DNA from: an uncultured Ruminococcus sp.
GTDB lineage: Bacteria > Bacillota_A > Clostridia > Oscillospirales > Acutalibacteraceae
NCBI GenBank assembly: GCA_902773395.1
Contig: CACYEJ010000161.1
Coordinates: 1 to 5,478 of the forward strand
Length of the DNA stretch: 5,478 nt
Direction of reading: 5' to 3'
Part shown: one piece after another, positions 1-5,478 of the stretch
Position numbering within the stretch: position 1 is the first letter of the stretch
Layout of the letters: every line of letters starts with the position of its first letter
The notes under the pieces: model-generated
What the model saw: the letters and a program-made list of their open reading frames with translations, nothing else
Told to the model about the DNA's origin: nothing
The model's database searches: none
Made by a program: the position numbers and the translations under genes

Positions 1-1167
1 GATAAGTATAGTGTTTCAGACGAATTGCTTGATTACGCAAAGAAACATACTCCGTACATTGGTAATCATGATGACGTGGGACGTATTGAGTCTTACATAA
101 GAGAGACAAAATTTAAGCAAATGTACGGAGACTTTTCTCGGAATGTAATCAATATTGCTGACAAACACCATATCGAGTATTCTGCTCAGATACTGAATAT
201 TATCCTTGATTCTATGGGTGTAGATGAAGATTCACCGTACCGTGCTGATATTATTGATGCTTTGAAAACAGAGATTGCTGTCTTTAGAAGTGATTTGCTA
301 ACATCTGATCATAGTAATGAGCTATATTATCAGAGCCTTATCGAGCGTTATTCACGCTACATATATCAAATACTTGTTTTAAGCCAATACAATTCCGAAA
401 GACTTAGAGAATTCTATGATAGCATTGACAATTTTTACAGTTTGTCAGTTTTCTATAGGAAACCTGATTGCGAGAATGATTTAGCATACATAGACATTGC
501 CCCGAAAGATCAGCCGCTTTGTATGATGCTTCTTTTTCATCATTATCTTAATATTGCAGATTCGCTGCGCTTGCTTTCGGATGATATTTGCAGAATTACA
601 GGTTTACGTGAAATTCCGGAAGAAATTTCAGGATTTCTTGATAAGGCATTTTCTGCAACGGGAGGTGATATAAACAGTATAGTTGATAAGGTTAAGAAAG
701 CAATCGGTAGAGCTATGGATAAAACCGAAGATTTCAAGGTAAACCTCGTAAAGAACACACTCTACACCTTGATTGAAAGCAATGAACCTTGTAGTGTTGC
801 AGATAAAGCAGCGTTCACTCGCTACTATGATCGTTATCATAGCTCCATAAGAGCAGGCAATTTGTATTCAGTTGATGATTTCAGAGCTGATTTTGATGTT
901 GACATTCAAATATTGCAGGATGTACTTGTAAATGCGTTTGTCCGTGCTATTAGTATGGAGAAGCCTTTTGTTGCAAGAGAGGCAAAATCAATAGATGACA
1001 TCATTGATTATATTGACAGTAAAAGTTTTGGAGCTTTCCTGAGTTCTAATTTTTATAGAATTAAGTATAAGGAAACTCAGCTTTTAGACAAACAGCGACG
1101 TGAGCAAGAACAGAATGCGGCAATTATTAGTGCAATTAGCGGTATTCTTGATTCACTTGATAACTAA
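1..1167 (+). CDS. Large helical protein of unknown function, 3' part only
   Basis: The reading frame is open from base 1, and 388 residues lie in the window before the TAA at 1165-1167. The first in-frame start-like codon (TTG at 25) has no ribosome binding site, so the gene almost certainly begins upstream. I do not recognise the family. The visible part is rich in charged and aromatic residues, looks almost wholly alpha-helical, and shows no signal peptide, transmembrane segment or nucleotide-binding motif. The last ~35 residues are charged, then hydrophobic in heptad-like spacing (KQRREQEQNAAIISAISGIL), suggesting a terminal coiled coil. The next gene starts 15 bp downstream, so the two are probably co-transcribed and may act together. 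Because bacterial dynamins often occur as adjacent pairs, this could be the helical stalk of a second dynamin-like protein whose G domain lies outside the window. That is inference; a scaffold or effector is equally possible. Confidence 0.85.
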   Translation, partial: DKYSVSDELLDYAKKHTPYIGNHDDVGRIESYIRETKFKQMYGDFSRNVINIADKHHIEYSAQILNIILDSMGVDEDSPYRADIIDALKTEIAVFRSDLLTSDHSNELYYQSLIERYSRYIYQILVLSQYNSERLREFYDSIDNFYSLSVFYRKPDCENDLAYIDIAPKDQPLCMMLLFHHYLNIADSLRLLSDDICRITGLREIPEEISGFLDKAFSATGGDINSIVDKVKKAIGRAMDKTEDFKVNLVKNTLYTLIESNEPCSVADKAAFTRYYDRYHSSIRAGNLYSVDDFRADFDVDIQILQDVLVNAFVRAISMEKPFVAREAKSIDDIIDYIDSKSFGAFLSSNFYRIKYKETQLLDKQRREQEQNAAIISAISGILDSLDN

Positions 1168-1182
1168 TTGGAGAAATGAGTT

Positions 1183-3903
1183 ATGAAATATAAGGAATTA
1201 TTTGGTAATAGTATCAAAGACGACGTATGCGTAATCAAGACAGATCTTGGTGATGATCCCAATACAGTCTTTGTATATTCCGGTTCAGATACACTTTATG
1301 ATTATATTGACTCCCTTTATGATAGAGGCAGAGGTCTTGATGCGGAGTATTTATATAAATTTAAGGTTTGCTACGAAAAAAAGGATTTAAGTGTTTCTTA
1401 TTCTGCAAGAAATGGGAAAAGAAGCAGAAAAATCACTTCTATGAGCAGCCTTGTTAACGAATTGGACGGCAAGGATATGTGCAGGATAGTTGTTGAAAGC
1501 AATGATCGTGTACAGCTTGCTTTTATAGTTCAACAGCTGATCTTTATTGAGTATCCTTTGGAAAAGGTCGATATACTTCTCAGAAAGGAAGAAAGGGATG
1601 CTGACAAAACAAAACGTTTCATGAAAAATGTCAACGAGCTGCTTGATGGCTGCGAGGTCGCTGTTACAAAGCTGCTCGATCTCAGGCATAAAATTGAAAA
1701 GGAAATAGATAAGAATAATCCTACGAAAGCTGAAAGACTCAAAGACATTGACGATGCACTTGATTCCTGCACATCAATTAAAGCTCAGATACATAAAGCT
1801 ATTGATGTTGAACTGAAATTTGCTGTAGCCGCTTCCAAAAAAGCAGGAAAGAGCGTAATAGTTAATTGTTTCCTCGGTGAGCAGATTGCTCCTACGAGCA
1901 CTGAGCTTGCAACGCCGAATAATTGCATTTATAAGAAAAGTCCTGATAATATGTACCATCTACAGCTTGAAGGTGGTGTACAGCAAGAGTTTAATACTCG
2001 TGAGGATATTTACGATGTAATTAACGAGCATTTTAGAACAGCTCAGAACAACAGAGAACAGGGATTTGCTTTGCCTGATATGCATATCGGATACGTTACA
2101 GAGGAAAACAATTTCTCCTCATACACCATTTTCGATACTGCGGGTCCGGATGCGGCAGGAACAACACATGCAGATGTAGCTGAAAGAGCGATGCAAAAAT
2201 GTGATGTAGCTGTTTTTGCTATTGATTATTCAAAATATCTTACAACATCTGAAGAAGAGTACCTTCGTAAGGTAAAAGAGACGTTCACCGCTCATAGTAA
2301 ATTCCATTCTCTTATTTTTGCATTGAACAAAATTGATGTCAGATATACAGATACACAAAGTCCTAAATCTTTTGTATTGTCTGTTGACTTTTTGAAGACA
2401 AGGCTTGCCAATATCGACGAGGCTTATAAAGATTGTATTATTTTTCCCACTTGTTCATTAGAGTATTTTAATGCAATAGAAGCTGAAAAGGCTGGTGTTA
2501 CTGAACTTAATGCGGAAAATAATCTTCCTATCGGAGAAATGAAGCGCGTTAAGATGACTCATAGAGATGTTCCTGCTCTTGCTTGGTTACATACCCATTC
2601 TGAGAATCTTGAGTATTATCATGGAGTTCAAACGATTTCCTATGATGTATTCAAAAAAGACAGCGGTATGCCGGCACTTATGAGCTATGTATCTTACGTT
2701 GCGCAAAGTAAGGCAAGGGATGAAATCGTAAATAATGTTACTTTTGAGATTTCATCTCAGAAAAATAAGATTCAAAGTATTCTTGACTATATTGCTAATA
2801 TTGAATCTCTTATTTTTGATGACGACGAAAAGATTTGTAAAATATCCGGCATTATTAGTGACTACACCAATAATGTTCAAGGTATTTTAAGTCCTGATTT
2901 TAATCAAGATGATCTTAAGCGTCTTGCCCCGTTTAGTCTTTTAAGAACATTTCACGGCGATTATAGAAAGATAATTTCAAGTCAGCGTGGGTCATGCAGC
3001 AGTCGCTGCGAAATGAAAAATATAGCTGAGGCAATGTATTCTATGATGGTGGACACTGTTTGGAAAAGGGTGTCTAATTCTTATGAGTTTGACGGTCATA
3101 AGATCGACTCTTTATTTACAGCAGATGATTTCAAGGTAATTGCGAACCGGGTTGCAAAAAAAATAGTGGAAGATACAGCAAACGACATTTATAACCAGCT
3201 TTCAAAACTTAACAGTGAGGTTAAAGAAATTGTTAAGTACAGACAGCAGTTACTGAGTACCGAGAGTGAGATTTGTCGCAGTAATCTTGAAAAAGAACGT
3301 ATAGCCCTGGAATTACCCAGACTTCCAGAATTTGAGTTTGCTACAAAAATGGTACATCCCAGTAGTGTCATAATTGAAGTTGGCTCTATAGATTTTGATC
3401 TCTATGGCAACCTATCTACTCTTTTTGAAAAGAAGTTTTTAACAAATATTACCACATTCTTTAAAAAGTTATTTGGATTTGCAACTCATAAAGATTATAA
3501 GTTGATTTTTTCAGCTTCAAAAGATGATTTCCGAAAAGTCTGCGATGAAAAGTTGAAAGAAAGGTTTAAAATTGCCGTATATGAGAATCATATAGCTAAA
3601 ATAATTGGCGACACGCTGAAAAATTCGGTCATTGATCAGTACATGACATCCTTGGTTAATGAACTCGAACAAGCCTTTGATAATATGAATGAGAGATATA
3701 AGATTTGTTTTGAGCGTTTTCGTTCTGCAGTTGATGATAGAGATAAATATAAATCAGAAATTGAATCGTATAATCTTCGCAAATCTAACATTATGGCTAT
3801 TGGTGAATGTACAGCGACATTTATGGATACATGGAGCATTATTGTCAGCGATTTCATAGAAGATGATAAAACCGAGACAGGAAATAATTCTGTTTGTGTT
3901 TGA
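1183..3903 (+). CDS. Dynamin-like large GTPase with long N-terminal extension
   Basis: The 906-residue product has the GTPase motifs of the dynamin superfamily in order: G1 ASKKAGKS (217-224), a G2 region APTSTELAT with probable switch threonine T244, G3 DTAG (318-321) and G4 NKID (382-385). Dynamin-like proteins hydrolyse GTP to tubulate, fuse or sense membranes. The G domain (about 211-440) is preceded by about 210 residues: a probable mixed alpha/beta module (12-127), then charged helices (128-210). Residues 505-906 are mainly helical, as expected for neck and stalk. A hydrophobic/basic patch at 744-766, including FFKKLFGF, is a candidate membrane-contact paddle. No transmembrane helix or signal peptide is visible. 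The ATG at 1183 follows GGAG at 1170-1173 with good spacing. G1 is unusual in having Ala for its first Gly. The GTPase family call is strong; the cellular role is unknown. Confidence 0.93.
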   Translation: MKYKELFGNSIKDDVCVIKTDLGDDPNTVFVYSGSDTLYDYIDSLYDRGRGLDAEYLYKFKVCYEKKDLSVSYSARNGKRSRKITSMSSLVNELDGKDMCRIVVESNDRVQLAFIVQQLIFIEYPLEKVDILLRKEERDADKTKRFMKNVNELLDGCEVAVTKLLDLRHKIEKEIDKNNPTKAERLKDIDDALDSCTSIKAQIHKAIDVELKFAVAASKKAGKSVIVNCFLGEQIAPTSTELATPNNCIYKKSPDNMYHLQLEGGVQQEFNTREDIYDVINEHFRTAQNNREQGFALPDMHIGYVTEENNFSSYTIFDTAGPDAAGTTHADVAERAMQKCDVAVFAIDYSKYLTTSEEEYLRKVKETFTAHSKFHSLIFALNKIDVRYTDTQSPKSFVLSVDFLKTRLANIDEAYKDCIIFPTCSLEYFNAIEAEKAGVTELNAENNLPIGEMKRVKMTHRDVPALAWLHTHSENLEYYHGVQTISYDVFKKDSGMPALMSYVSYVAQSKARDEIVNNVTFEISSQKNKIQSILDYIANIESLIFDDDEKICKISGIISDYTNNVQGILSPDFNQDDLKRLAPFSLLRTFHGDYRKIISSQRGSCSSRCEMKNIAEAMYSMMVDTVWKRVSNSYEFDGHKIDSLFTADDFKVIANRVAKKIVEDTANDIYNQLSKLNSEVKEIVKYRQQLLSTESEICRSNLEKERIALELPRLPEFEFATKMVHPSSVIIEVGSIDFDLYGNLSTLFEKKFLTNITTFFKKLFGFATHKDYKLIFSASKDDFRKVCDEKLKERFKIAVYENHIAKIIGDTLKNSVIDQYMTSLVNELEQAFDNMNERYKICFERFRSAVDDRDKYKSEIESYNLRKSNIMAIGECTATFMDTWSIIVSDFIEDDKTETGNNSVCV

Positions 3904-3904
3904 G

Positions 3905-3919
3905 AAAGGAACGGGGTGA
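3905..3919 (+). promoter_or_regulatory. Ribosome binding region fixing the start of the 118-residue gene
   Basis: AAAGGA (3905-3910) and GGGGTGA (3913-3919) both match parts of the Shine-Dalgarno complement and sit just before the ATG at 3921. They favour this ATG over the in-frame TTG at 3894, which lies inside the end of the GTPase gene and has no such signal. Which of the two elements pairs with the ribosome cannot be told by eye. Confidence 0.7.
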
Positions 3920-3920
3920 A

Positions 3921-4277
3921 ATGGAGTTAATACCATCAACGAGTTTTGCATCTGCCGTTGCAAGCTCCAGAGAACAATTAAACAATATTTCAAATATTGT
4001 ATCTAAGTATTGTGGGCAAGGCAAAGCAGTCGAGTTCCGTAAGGCTTGCGATGATCTTGATTTCACAAAAGCAAATACTATTCTTGATGATACAGTAAAA
4101 GAATTAACAGGATATGATTCTGTTTTTATAGCTCTAAGTGCATTTGTGGAAAAGTTCCCTCAATTATCTCCTGAACTTGAAGAAAAAGTATCAGATTCAT
4201 TGTCTGAGTCCGACAAAGTTAAAGCAATTGAAAGCTATAGAACGAGAATTATCAACATAATTGATGGGATGTGCTGA
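3921..4277 (+). CDS. Small soluble helical protein, probable paralogue of the next gene's N-terminal domain
   Basis: The product has 118 residues, with no signal peptide, transmembrane helix or recognisable catalytic motif. I do not recognise the family. It appears to be a helical bundle: helices are likely around 14-31, 35-45, 48-63, 67-78 and 97-115, with an acidic linker (SPELEEKVSDSLSESDK, 83-99). Residues 29-62 align without gaps to residues 30-63 of the next protein (shared Y, A, F, A, D, I-L, T, K), and an FP pair follows in both, at 79-80 here and 83-84 there. This suggests duplication of one small domain. The gene starts 17 bp after the GTPase stop and ends 2 bp before the next ATG, so all are probably translated from one message. 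A role as adaptor or regulator of the GTPase is inference from position. The ATG was chosen for its ribosome binding site; an in-frame TTG would add nine residues. Confidence 0.82.
   Translation: MELIPSTSFASAVASSREQLNNISNIVSKYCGQGKAVEFRKACDDLDFTKANTILDDTVKELTGYDSVFIALSAFVEKFPQLSPELEEKVSDSLSESDKVKAIESYRTRIINIIDGMC
4266..4269 (+). promoter_or_regulatory. Weak ribosome binding site for the transmembrane-protein gene
   Basis: GGGA inside the end of the preceding gene lies 10 nt before the ATG at 4280. It is too close to the alternative GTG at 4271 to serve that codon. The 2-bp gap between stop and start also suggests translational coupling, with ribosomes finishing the upstream gene restarting here. 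Confidence 0.45.
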
Positions 4278-4279
4278 TA

Positions 4280-4846
4280 ATGAGTAACTCGCAGTTATTT
4301 AACTTTGAGGCTTTGAAAGAATTGACCATTGATAGCTTTATTATTAGATGCAAGGAATATGTGGAGCAGTATCTTTCGAATTCAGAGGCTACTCGTTTTT
4401 ATGATGCATATAAGGAATCCGACTTAGCTGAGGTCAAAAATATTCTTTTGAACACACTTAAGAGTATGAAAAATATAGTTAAGGATTCGGAATATCAAAA
4501 TGCAAAAAAAGCTGTGATGGACGAATTTCCGGATGTAAAAAAGCTGATTTTTTCTTTCGATAACAAAGAAGGGAGGCATCATGAAGAGATGGGTGATGAA
4601 CACATGGGCACAGGTAGCGGAATGATTGCTGTAATTGTTATTCTTATTGCGATAGTTATTGCGATTGTTGGTACTTGCTTAAAAGTAAAGAATAAGACCG
4701 TAGGCGAAGTTCTTTCGTTTGGATCAAAAAAGAATAATGGTTCTGGTAAAACATATGAATACAGCGATAAAGATAGAGATATGTTGGCATTGATACATGA
4801 ATTGTCCGTTATTTATGATAATACAGAGAAATACTTGGACGAATAA
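4280..4846 (+). CDS. Small single-pass membrane protein, putative anchor partner of the GTPase
   Basis: The product has 188 residues and is of no family I recognise. Order of parts: an N-terminal helical domain (about 5-95) resembling the preceding protein; a His/Glu/Gly linker (97-114); one strong transmembrane helix (about 115-134, MIAVIVILIAIVIAIVGTCL); a lysine-rich juxtamembrane stretch (135-151); and a charged C-terminal tail (about 158-188) that could form a helix. There is no N-terminal signal peptide. Charges flanking the helix are acidic before and basic after, so the positive-inside rule would put the C-terminus in the cytoplasm; this conflicts with a cytoplasmic N-domain and leaves topology open. 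It lies 2 bp after the previous gene. As the only visible membrane-spanning protein in the cluster, it could recruit the GTPase or the soluble paralogue to the membrane (inference). The start could instead be the overlapping GTG at 4271, adding three residues. Confidence 0.83.
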   Translation: MSNSQLFNFEALKELTIDSFIIRCKEYVEQYLSNSEATRFYDAYKESDLAEVKNILLNTLKSMKNIVKDSEYQNAKKAVMDEFPDVKKLIFSFDNKEGRHHEEMGDEHMGTGSGMIAVIVILIAIVIAIVGTCLKVKNKTVGEVLSFGSKKNNGSGKTYEYSDKDRDMLALIHELSVIYDNTEKYLDE

Positions 4847-5210: not shown

Positions 5211-5262
5211 TTATATCCATAGTGTAAAGCAATTCCAAATCTCCTTTACACTATGGATATAA
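5211..5262. repeat. Perfect 19-bp inverted repeat with 14-nt loop
   Basis: TTATATCCATAGTGTAAAG (5211-5229) is exactly reverse-complementary to 5244-5262, separated by CAATTCCAAATCTC. A perfect 19-bp match in non-coding DNA is unlikely by chance. Neither strand has a T-run directly after the stem, so it is not a standard intrinsic terminator. It could be an RNA hairpin, a dyad operator, a recombination site or the remnant of a small mobile element. Its position about 190 bp before the next start codon is compatible with control of that gene, but nothing else links them. Confidence 0.85.
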
Positions 5263-5453: not shown

Positions 5454-5478
5454 ATGGGAATGTATTTAAATCCGGGCA
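5454..5478 (+). CDS. Start of a probable AAA-ATPase-like/PD-(D/E)XK family protein, 5' fragment
   Basis: Only eight codons are visible, reading MGMYLNPG, behind a strong ribosome binding site and a plausible promoter. From memory, this opening is typical of a multi-copy family in gut Clostridia that carries an N-terminal AAA-ATPase-like domain (Pfam AAA-ATPase_like, PF09820) and a C-terminal PD-(D/E)XK nuclease-like domain (PF08011, formerly DUF1703). In those proteins the next residues are usually N-x-G-F followed by Y-V-D-K. Their biological role is not established to my knowledge; they are often found among accessory genes. The separate promoter and the 607-bp gap argue that it is not part of the dynamin operon. 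Eight residues are little evidence, so the family call is tentative, though a start of translation here is likely. Confidence 0.6.

Follow-up and report, generated by a model that had tools for sequence, protein, structure and literature searches.

The dynamin pair and its small partner genes

The subject of this analysis is a four-gene cassette in a 5,478-nucleotide stretch of DNA (contig CACYEJ010000161.1, assembly GCA_902773395.1, from an uncultured Ruminococcus sp.), hereafter the window. The open reading frames (ORFs) of the window agree with the layout given in an earlier sequence-only reading, namely four genes, all on the plus strand and separated by gaps of 15, 17 and 2 bp. That reading took the first gene for an unknown helical protein, which proved mistaken: it spans 1..1167, is cut at the left window edge and encodes the C-terminal 388 residues of a dynamin-like protein (DLP), here termed DLP1. 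The database protein P0176 (864 residues) is identical to this fragment at 385 of 388 positions, and the DLP1 orthologue at locus L001 is complete, with 864 residues, a Dynamin_N domain (1.1e-17) and the P-loop GMEKAGKS; in a search of PDB sequences it matches SynDLP and BDLP1. Because of this near-identity and the full-length orthologue with its Dynamin_N domain, we identify gene 1 as the 3' portion of a gene for a second dynamin. The G1 motif of DLP1 is canonical, and its G68 is invariant in the family alignment. The proposal of a cassette built around one dynamin-like GTPase therefore holds as to a conserved unit, with a Dynamin_N match in the second gene product, DLP2 (3.4e-10, above the family cut-off), but not as to the number of dynamins, of which there are two. 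The cassette is made up of a dynamin pair (DLP1 and DLP2), a 118-residue helical protein and a 188-residue single-pass membrane protein.

DLP2 (1183..3903) has 906 residues and, in its predicted structure, an additional N-terminal α/β domain of about residues 1–132 (1183..1578), which can be aligned along the family and in the distant homologue from genome G619. Matches to Dynamin_N above the Pfam cut-off were also obtained for DLP1 of L001 and L002 and for both DLPs of G619. The family alignment points to a non-canonical G1 motif: the P-loop ASKKAGKS (residues 217–224; 1831..1854) carries alanine in place of the first glycine, A217 being found in 30 of 30 aligned members. The other nucleotide-binding signatures (DTxG and NKxD) appear to be retained, as the G3 motif DTAG (residues 318–321; 2134..2145), with D318, T319 and G321 invariant in all 30, and the G4 motif NKID (residues 382–385; 2326..2337), with N382 and D385 invariant and K383 nearly so. 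As a DLP2 profile drew nothing credible from the PDB sequences (best E 0.026), its fold was taken from the predicted model (pLDDT 85.9), in which the G domain is followed by helical neck and trunk bundles. The model gives fold matches to BDLP1, IniA, mitofusins, LeoA (4aur) and the Cj-DLPs (5owv, 5oxf), in a comparison that barely covered the N-terminal domain. Among the homologues, P0001 (1471 residues) resembles two fused copies of DLP2, with two Dynamin_N stretches, and its longest-contig size coincides with that of another DLP2 and of a DLP1.

Gene 3 (3921..4277) encodes 118 residues from an ATG and is predicted to be all-helical, in a model with a pLDDT of 82.5 that was built from only 4 alignment rows; a PDB fold search with this model gave no match at E 0.001. 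Gene 4 (4280..4846) encodes 188 residues from an ATG and bears out the claim of a small single-pass membrane protein, in that it contains one strong hydrophobic segment at residues 116–134 (4625..4681), with a mean Kyte-Doolittle value of 3.3 over a 19-residue window. Its homologues, 31 out of 239 candidates, share a conserved C-terminal motif of the form YxxKDxD...LIHELSxIYDNTxxYL. Neither gene gave a significant match to a known family in profile searches. With PADLOC-DB 2.0.0, the window DLP2 went unmatched, and neither gene 3 nor gene 4 obtained a convincing hit.

Conservation, linkage and distribution of the set

Close relatives of DLP2 were found at two loci in reference genome contigs, selected from 35 pattern matches. 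Both L001, from a Ruminococcus metagenome-assembled genome (MAG), and L002, from a Riflebacteria MAG, have the same gene order, DLP1 and DLP2 being followed by a protein of about 118 residues and then by one with a single transmembrane (TM) segment. Genes 3 and 4 are thus retained at all three loci read, that is, the window, L001 and L002, and DLP1 lies 5' of DLP2 at these three as well as at L016. To assess linkage in a larger sample, the longest-contig sizes recorded for the homologues of each protein were compared between homologue lists (the best 120 of 667 for DLP1 and the best 120 of 255 for DLP2), with jittered sizes as the null. It should be noted that such a comparison is a proxy, as it says nothing on gene order and, with a single longest contig per cluster, misses the other contigs. 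By this measure the two DLP lists have 33 distinct longest-contig sizes in common, against a jitter mean of 0.66 and a maximum of 5. The 31 gene 4 homologues provide 30 distinct sizes, 12 of which coincide with a DLP list (jitter 0.3, maximum 3), and on contigs of at least 4 kb the coincidence rises to 12 of 17. The order kept in L001 and L002, together with a coincidence far above the jittered null, indicates linkage beyond chance. The expectation that the GTPase keeps its neighbours is thereby borne out, in the three loci read and in the longest-contig links of DLP2 with DLP1 and of gene 4 with a DLP. As to whether the small genes also occur without the GTPase, the answer is partial: of the 199 genomes searched with the gene 3 profile, only G001, itself a carrier of the cassette, gave a match, and for gene 4 there are the 12 of 30 sizes given above.

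The surroundings of the cassette in L002 contain further GTPases. At 8107-16344, 3' of the cassette, we noted another DLP2-like gene, the second of the locus, which carries a hydrophobic insert, followed by a gene whose 760-residue product has a TM segment and matches DO-GTPase1 (7.9e-7). The same cluster of several GTPases also encodes a TM protein of 436 residues and, as its last member, a third DLP2-like protein; the gene of the latter is cut by the locus end, and its frame stays open for 690 residues in the full contig.

The module is very patchily distributed. In whole-genome searches, whose counts include the centre genome each time and to which G619 is the only addition, DLP2 was found in 1 of 394 genomes of the order of G001, 1 of 11 of its genus, 2 of 199 of its phylum and 1 of 39 of the phylum of G002. 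The corresponding counts for DLP1 are 2 of 398 for the phylum, 1 of 391 for the class of G001 and 1 of 59 for that of G619. Among the matches listed, the source labels include Ruminococcus, Anaerobutyricum, Prevotella and Succinimonas, several of which are MAGs that might be misbinned; the Succinimonas DLP1 and DLP2 have an identical longest-contig size (among the best 120 of 667 and of 255). The module has probably spread horizontally. A prophage-like site, which the sequence-only reading had also entertained, gained no support, and the same holds for a plasmid: at the sensitivity used, searches of viral contigs with both DLPs and gene 4, of phage records with DLP2 alone and of plasmids with both DLPs turned up no relatives.

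Relationship to known bacterial dynamin systems

Dynamin pairs are not new in bacteria, and some, such as Eleos, are catalogued as anti-phage systems. The cassette resembles Eleos (LeoBC plus LeoA) in its tandem dynamin-like GTPases, LeoBC-like first, in partial similarity to the LeoBC and LeoA profiles, and in the predicted fold of DLP2, which matches that of LeoA (4aur). Against the PADLOC profiles, P0176 matches LeoA at 1.9e-8 and LeoBC at 4e-7, each over part of the profile, and the G619 DLP2 matches LeoA at 2.6e-14 over positions 103-540 of 559; these scores do not assign LeoA or LeoBC to one particular partner of the pair. The gene 1 fragment of the window itself matches PDC-S49 (1.4e-4). 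In contrast, the DLPs described here have about 860–906 residues, against 576 and 678 in the sole control Eleos pair (L041), and the additional N-terminal domain and P-loop alanine of DLP2 set it apart. They also differ in keeping two additional small genes in the window, L001 and L002; to our knowledge, Eleos consists of the DLP genes alone, with no conserved small partners. The control pair had been located through a LeoBC family search that matched 129 of 199 genomes, mostly with short G-domain matches to other GTPases, and that was used to find control pairs only.

A further difference concerns membrane attachment. Eleos is described as a dynamin-like defence system (PMC11811056), and LeoA carries a hydrophobic paddle at the trunk tip (PMC4159319); the latter paper also describes the neighbours of leoBCA as not conserved. 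In our hydrophobic-paddle test, 1 of 31 DLP2 and 1 of 31 DLP1 sequences reach 1.6, against 1.53 and 1.82 for the two members of the control Eleos pair. Nearly all the checked members of the DLP1 and DLP2 families are thus without a hydrophobic paddle. A phylogeny of 34 G domains, based on 291 columns, places the control pair outside both the DLP1 and the DLP2 clades, with support of 1.0 for the branches setting off these two and weak support at the other deep nodes. Because of the missing paddle, the conserved small partners, which Eleos is not known to have, and the alanine at the first glycine of the DLP2 P-loop, the module was not filed as Eleos.

The membrane-tethering pair Cj-DLP1/Cj-DLP2 of Campylobacter jejuni (PDB 5owv, 5oxf) is similar in its paired DLP genes, in the fold match of the DLP2 model and in the presence of an extra N-terminal domain on one partner. 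The domain of Cj-DLP1 has 119 residues and serves in assembly (PMC6104087); homology between it and the domain of DLP2 is not established. The predicted arrangement of a G domain with helical neck and trunk is also shared with BDLP1 of Nostoc, IniA, SynDLP and the mitofusins. The same source gives BDLP1 a lipid paddle and the mitofusins membrane-attached tip helices (PMC6104087), whereas the strong TM helix of the present cassette resides in the separate product of gene 4. No description of the cassette was found in the literature searched, which omits most subscription journals.

Defence context and functional interpretation

The distant pair of G619 lies among defence genes. Its DLP1 has 860 residues (profile E 1.6e-170), and its DLP2 has 841, with a profile match that begins at residue 1 (probability 100%, E 1.3e-79, 27% identity). 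These are followed on the 3' side by a 95-residue ORF and a 71-residue ORF with one TM segment. At a distance of 256 bp past the small ORFs, and all on one strand, come BrxA, BrxB, BrxC, PglX and PglZ, then ZorA1, ZorB1, ZorC1 and ZorD1, so that the DLP pair lies directly upstream of BREX genes (Brx/Pgl) and Zorya I genes (Zor). On their upstream side the two DLP genes are flanked by genes resembling HsdM and HsdS and by a nuclease/helicase pair. Within this island (L018, 3111-10636), we also noted that ZorA1–D1 follow PglZ directly and in the same orientation, BrxL being absent between them.

We consider the cassette an accessory paired-dynamin module, which we judge, at about even confidence, to be most likely anti-phage and to work in the manner of Eleos and the Cj-DLPs while being differently anchored. 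In view of the G619 island and the partial similarity to the LeoBC and LeoA profiles, membrane surveillance against phages is the most likely function; the defence role as such is one that we infer from that single island. By analogy, DLP1 and DLP2 would form a hetero-oligomer, possibly via the extra N-terminal domain of DLP2. Gene 4 may provide in trans the membrane anchor that other DLPs have at the trunk tip, and gene 3 could act as an adaptor or regulator linking the GTPases and the anchor. Upon a phage-induced disturbance of the membrane, the complex would assemble at the inner membrane, and its GTP-driven action would tether, seal or remodel that membrane, whereby phage entry or lysis might be blocked.

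Several observations weigh against this interpretation. Defence neighbours were found at one locus, G619, while L002 is a short contig, too short to judge by and carrying further GTPases. No defence system was recognised among 8 flanking proteins of L001 (about half of those of at least 100 residues in the stretch read) compared with PADLOC models; 3 of the 8, in our reading a kinase, an ABC protein and an ATPase, matched PDC-M43B, mads_3 (with mads_8 and AriA) and PDC-S01, which we take for cross-hits. The L001 contig starts just 1 kb upstream of DLP1, and its upstream side lies outside the data. Moreover, what links the small ORFs of G619 to genes 3 and 4 is their position, their size class and, for gene 4, the one TM segment; profile comparisons gave no homology (probabilities of 0.3% and 2.8%), and a gene 3 profile search had no match in G619. 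At the limits used, no LeoA or LeoBC match was obtained for DLP2 of the window and of L001 or for DLP1 of L002 and of G619. Finally, four further DLPs, at L044 and L045, are also paddle-less, so that loss of the paddle is not unique to the DLP1/DLP2 family.

A more specific version, which we put forward tentatively and with less confidence, is that of a distinct four-component anti-phage system. Here the paddle-less dynamins would form a soluble GTPase engine, with DLP2 and its non-canonical P-loop as the regulatory member, and the small anchor would recruit it in trans via the helical adaptor. Motor, adaptor and anchor would thus be separable parts of a machine that has spread between phyla.

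The best surviving alternative, which we regard as rather unlikely, is general envelope maintenance, in which the pair would repair or tether the membrane when antibiotics or other envelope stress act on it, a role proposed for Cj-DLP1/2 and DynA of B. subtilis, and the adjacency to BREX in G619 would be coincidental. A general repair role is speculated for Cj-DLP1/2 (PMC6104087), and the genes downstream in L001, with no defence system among the 8 proteins tested, appear by eye to be metabolic, two-component and ABC-type. Yet the very patchy presence and scattered taxon labels are unlike those of a housekeeping system, and one copy of the pair stands beside BREX, Zorya and HsdM/HsdS-like genes. 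Abortive infection, with the GTPase pair and membrane protein rupturing the host membrane upon phage sensing so that the infected cell dies, seems improbable. It would accommodate the G619 island, the membrane protein and small helical protein accompanying the GTPases, and a weak match between the gene 3 product of L001 and the N-terminal bundle of MLKL; but this match is non-significant (E 0.04, below the cut-off), the gene 3 model found no counterpart in the PDB at E 0.001, and no pore-like or multi-TM effector was seen. Still further down stands a vesicle or secretion function, as originally proposed for LeoABC, which has been tied to the release of vesicles (PMC4159319): several of the named hosts are Gram-positive (Ruminococcus, Anaerobutyricum) and have no outer membrane such as that model involves, and inspection by eye, with no profile search made, revealed no dedicated secretion system near L001, L002 or G619. 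It is scarcely credible that the four genes lie together by chance and share no function, for although genes 3 and 4 lack a significant known family, the order kept in L001 and L002 and the longest-contig linkage largely contradict it.

Under the anti-phage reading, the module adds a candidate to the defence catalogues, of which PADLOC-DB 2.0.0, the one consulted here, had no match for the window DLP2. With separate conserved genes for anchor and adaptor, motor, adaptor and anchor could be removed singly, and the way in which dynamins defend the cell would be open to direct experiment.

Other DLP arrangements were encountered in the course of the searches. The Ruminococcus genome G001 contains two other paddle-less DLP pairs (L044, 6121-13403; L045, 4350-10388), followed by proteins of 372 and 368 residues and then of 94 and 98 residues, respectively, and in L044 additionally by a 367-residue TM protein. 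These are possibly another type of paired dynamins with partners. L042 (5486-9878), L043 (8197-11134) and L046 (2-4856) carry DLP genes of the paddle type, each preceded by a gene for a protein of 210–310 residues with a C-terminal hydrophobic segment. In the window itself, a perfect inverted repeat of 19 bp, its arms separated by a 14-nt loop (TTATATCCATAGTGTAAAG), lies at 5211-5262, 364 bp 3' of gene 4; it has no adjoining T-run and could be a hairpin or the end of a mobile element. An apparent further plus-strand ORF, identified by eye (MGMYLNPG...), starts at 5454-5478 and is cut at the window end.
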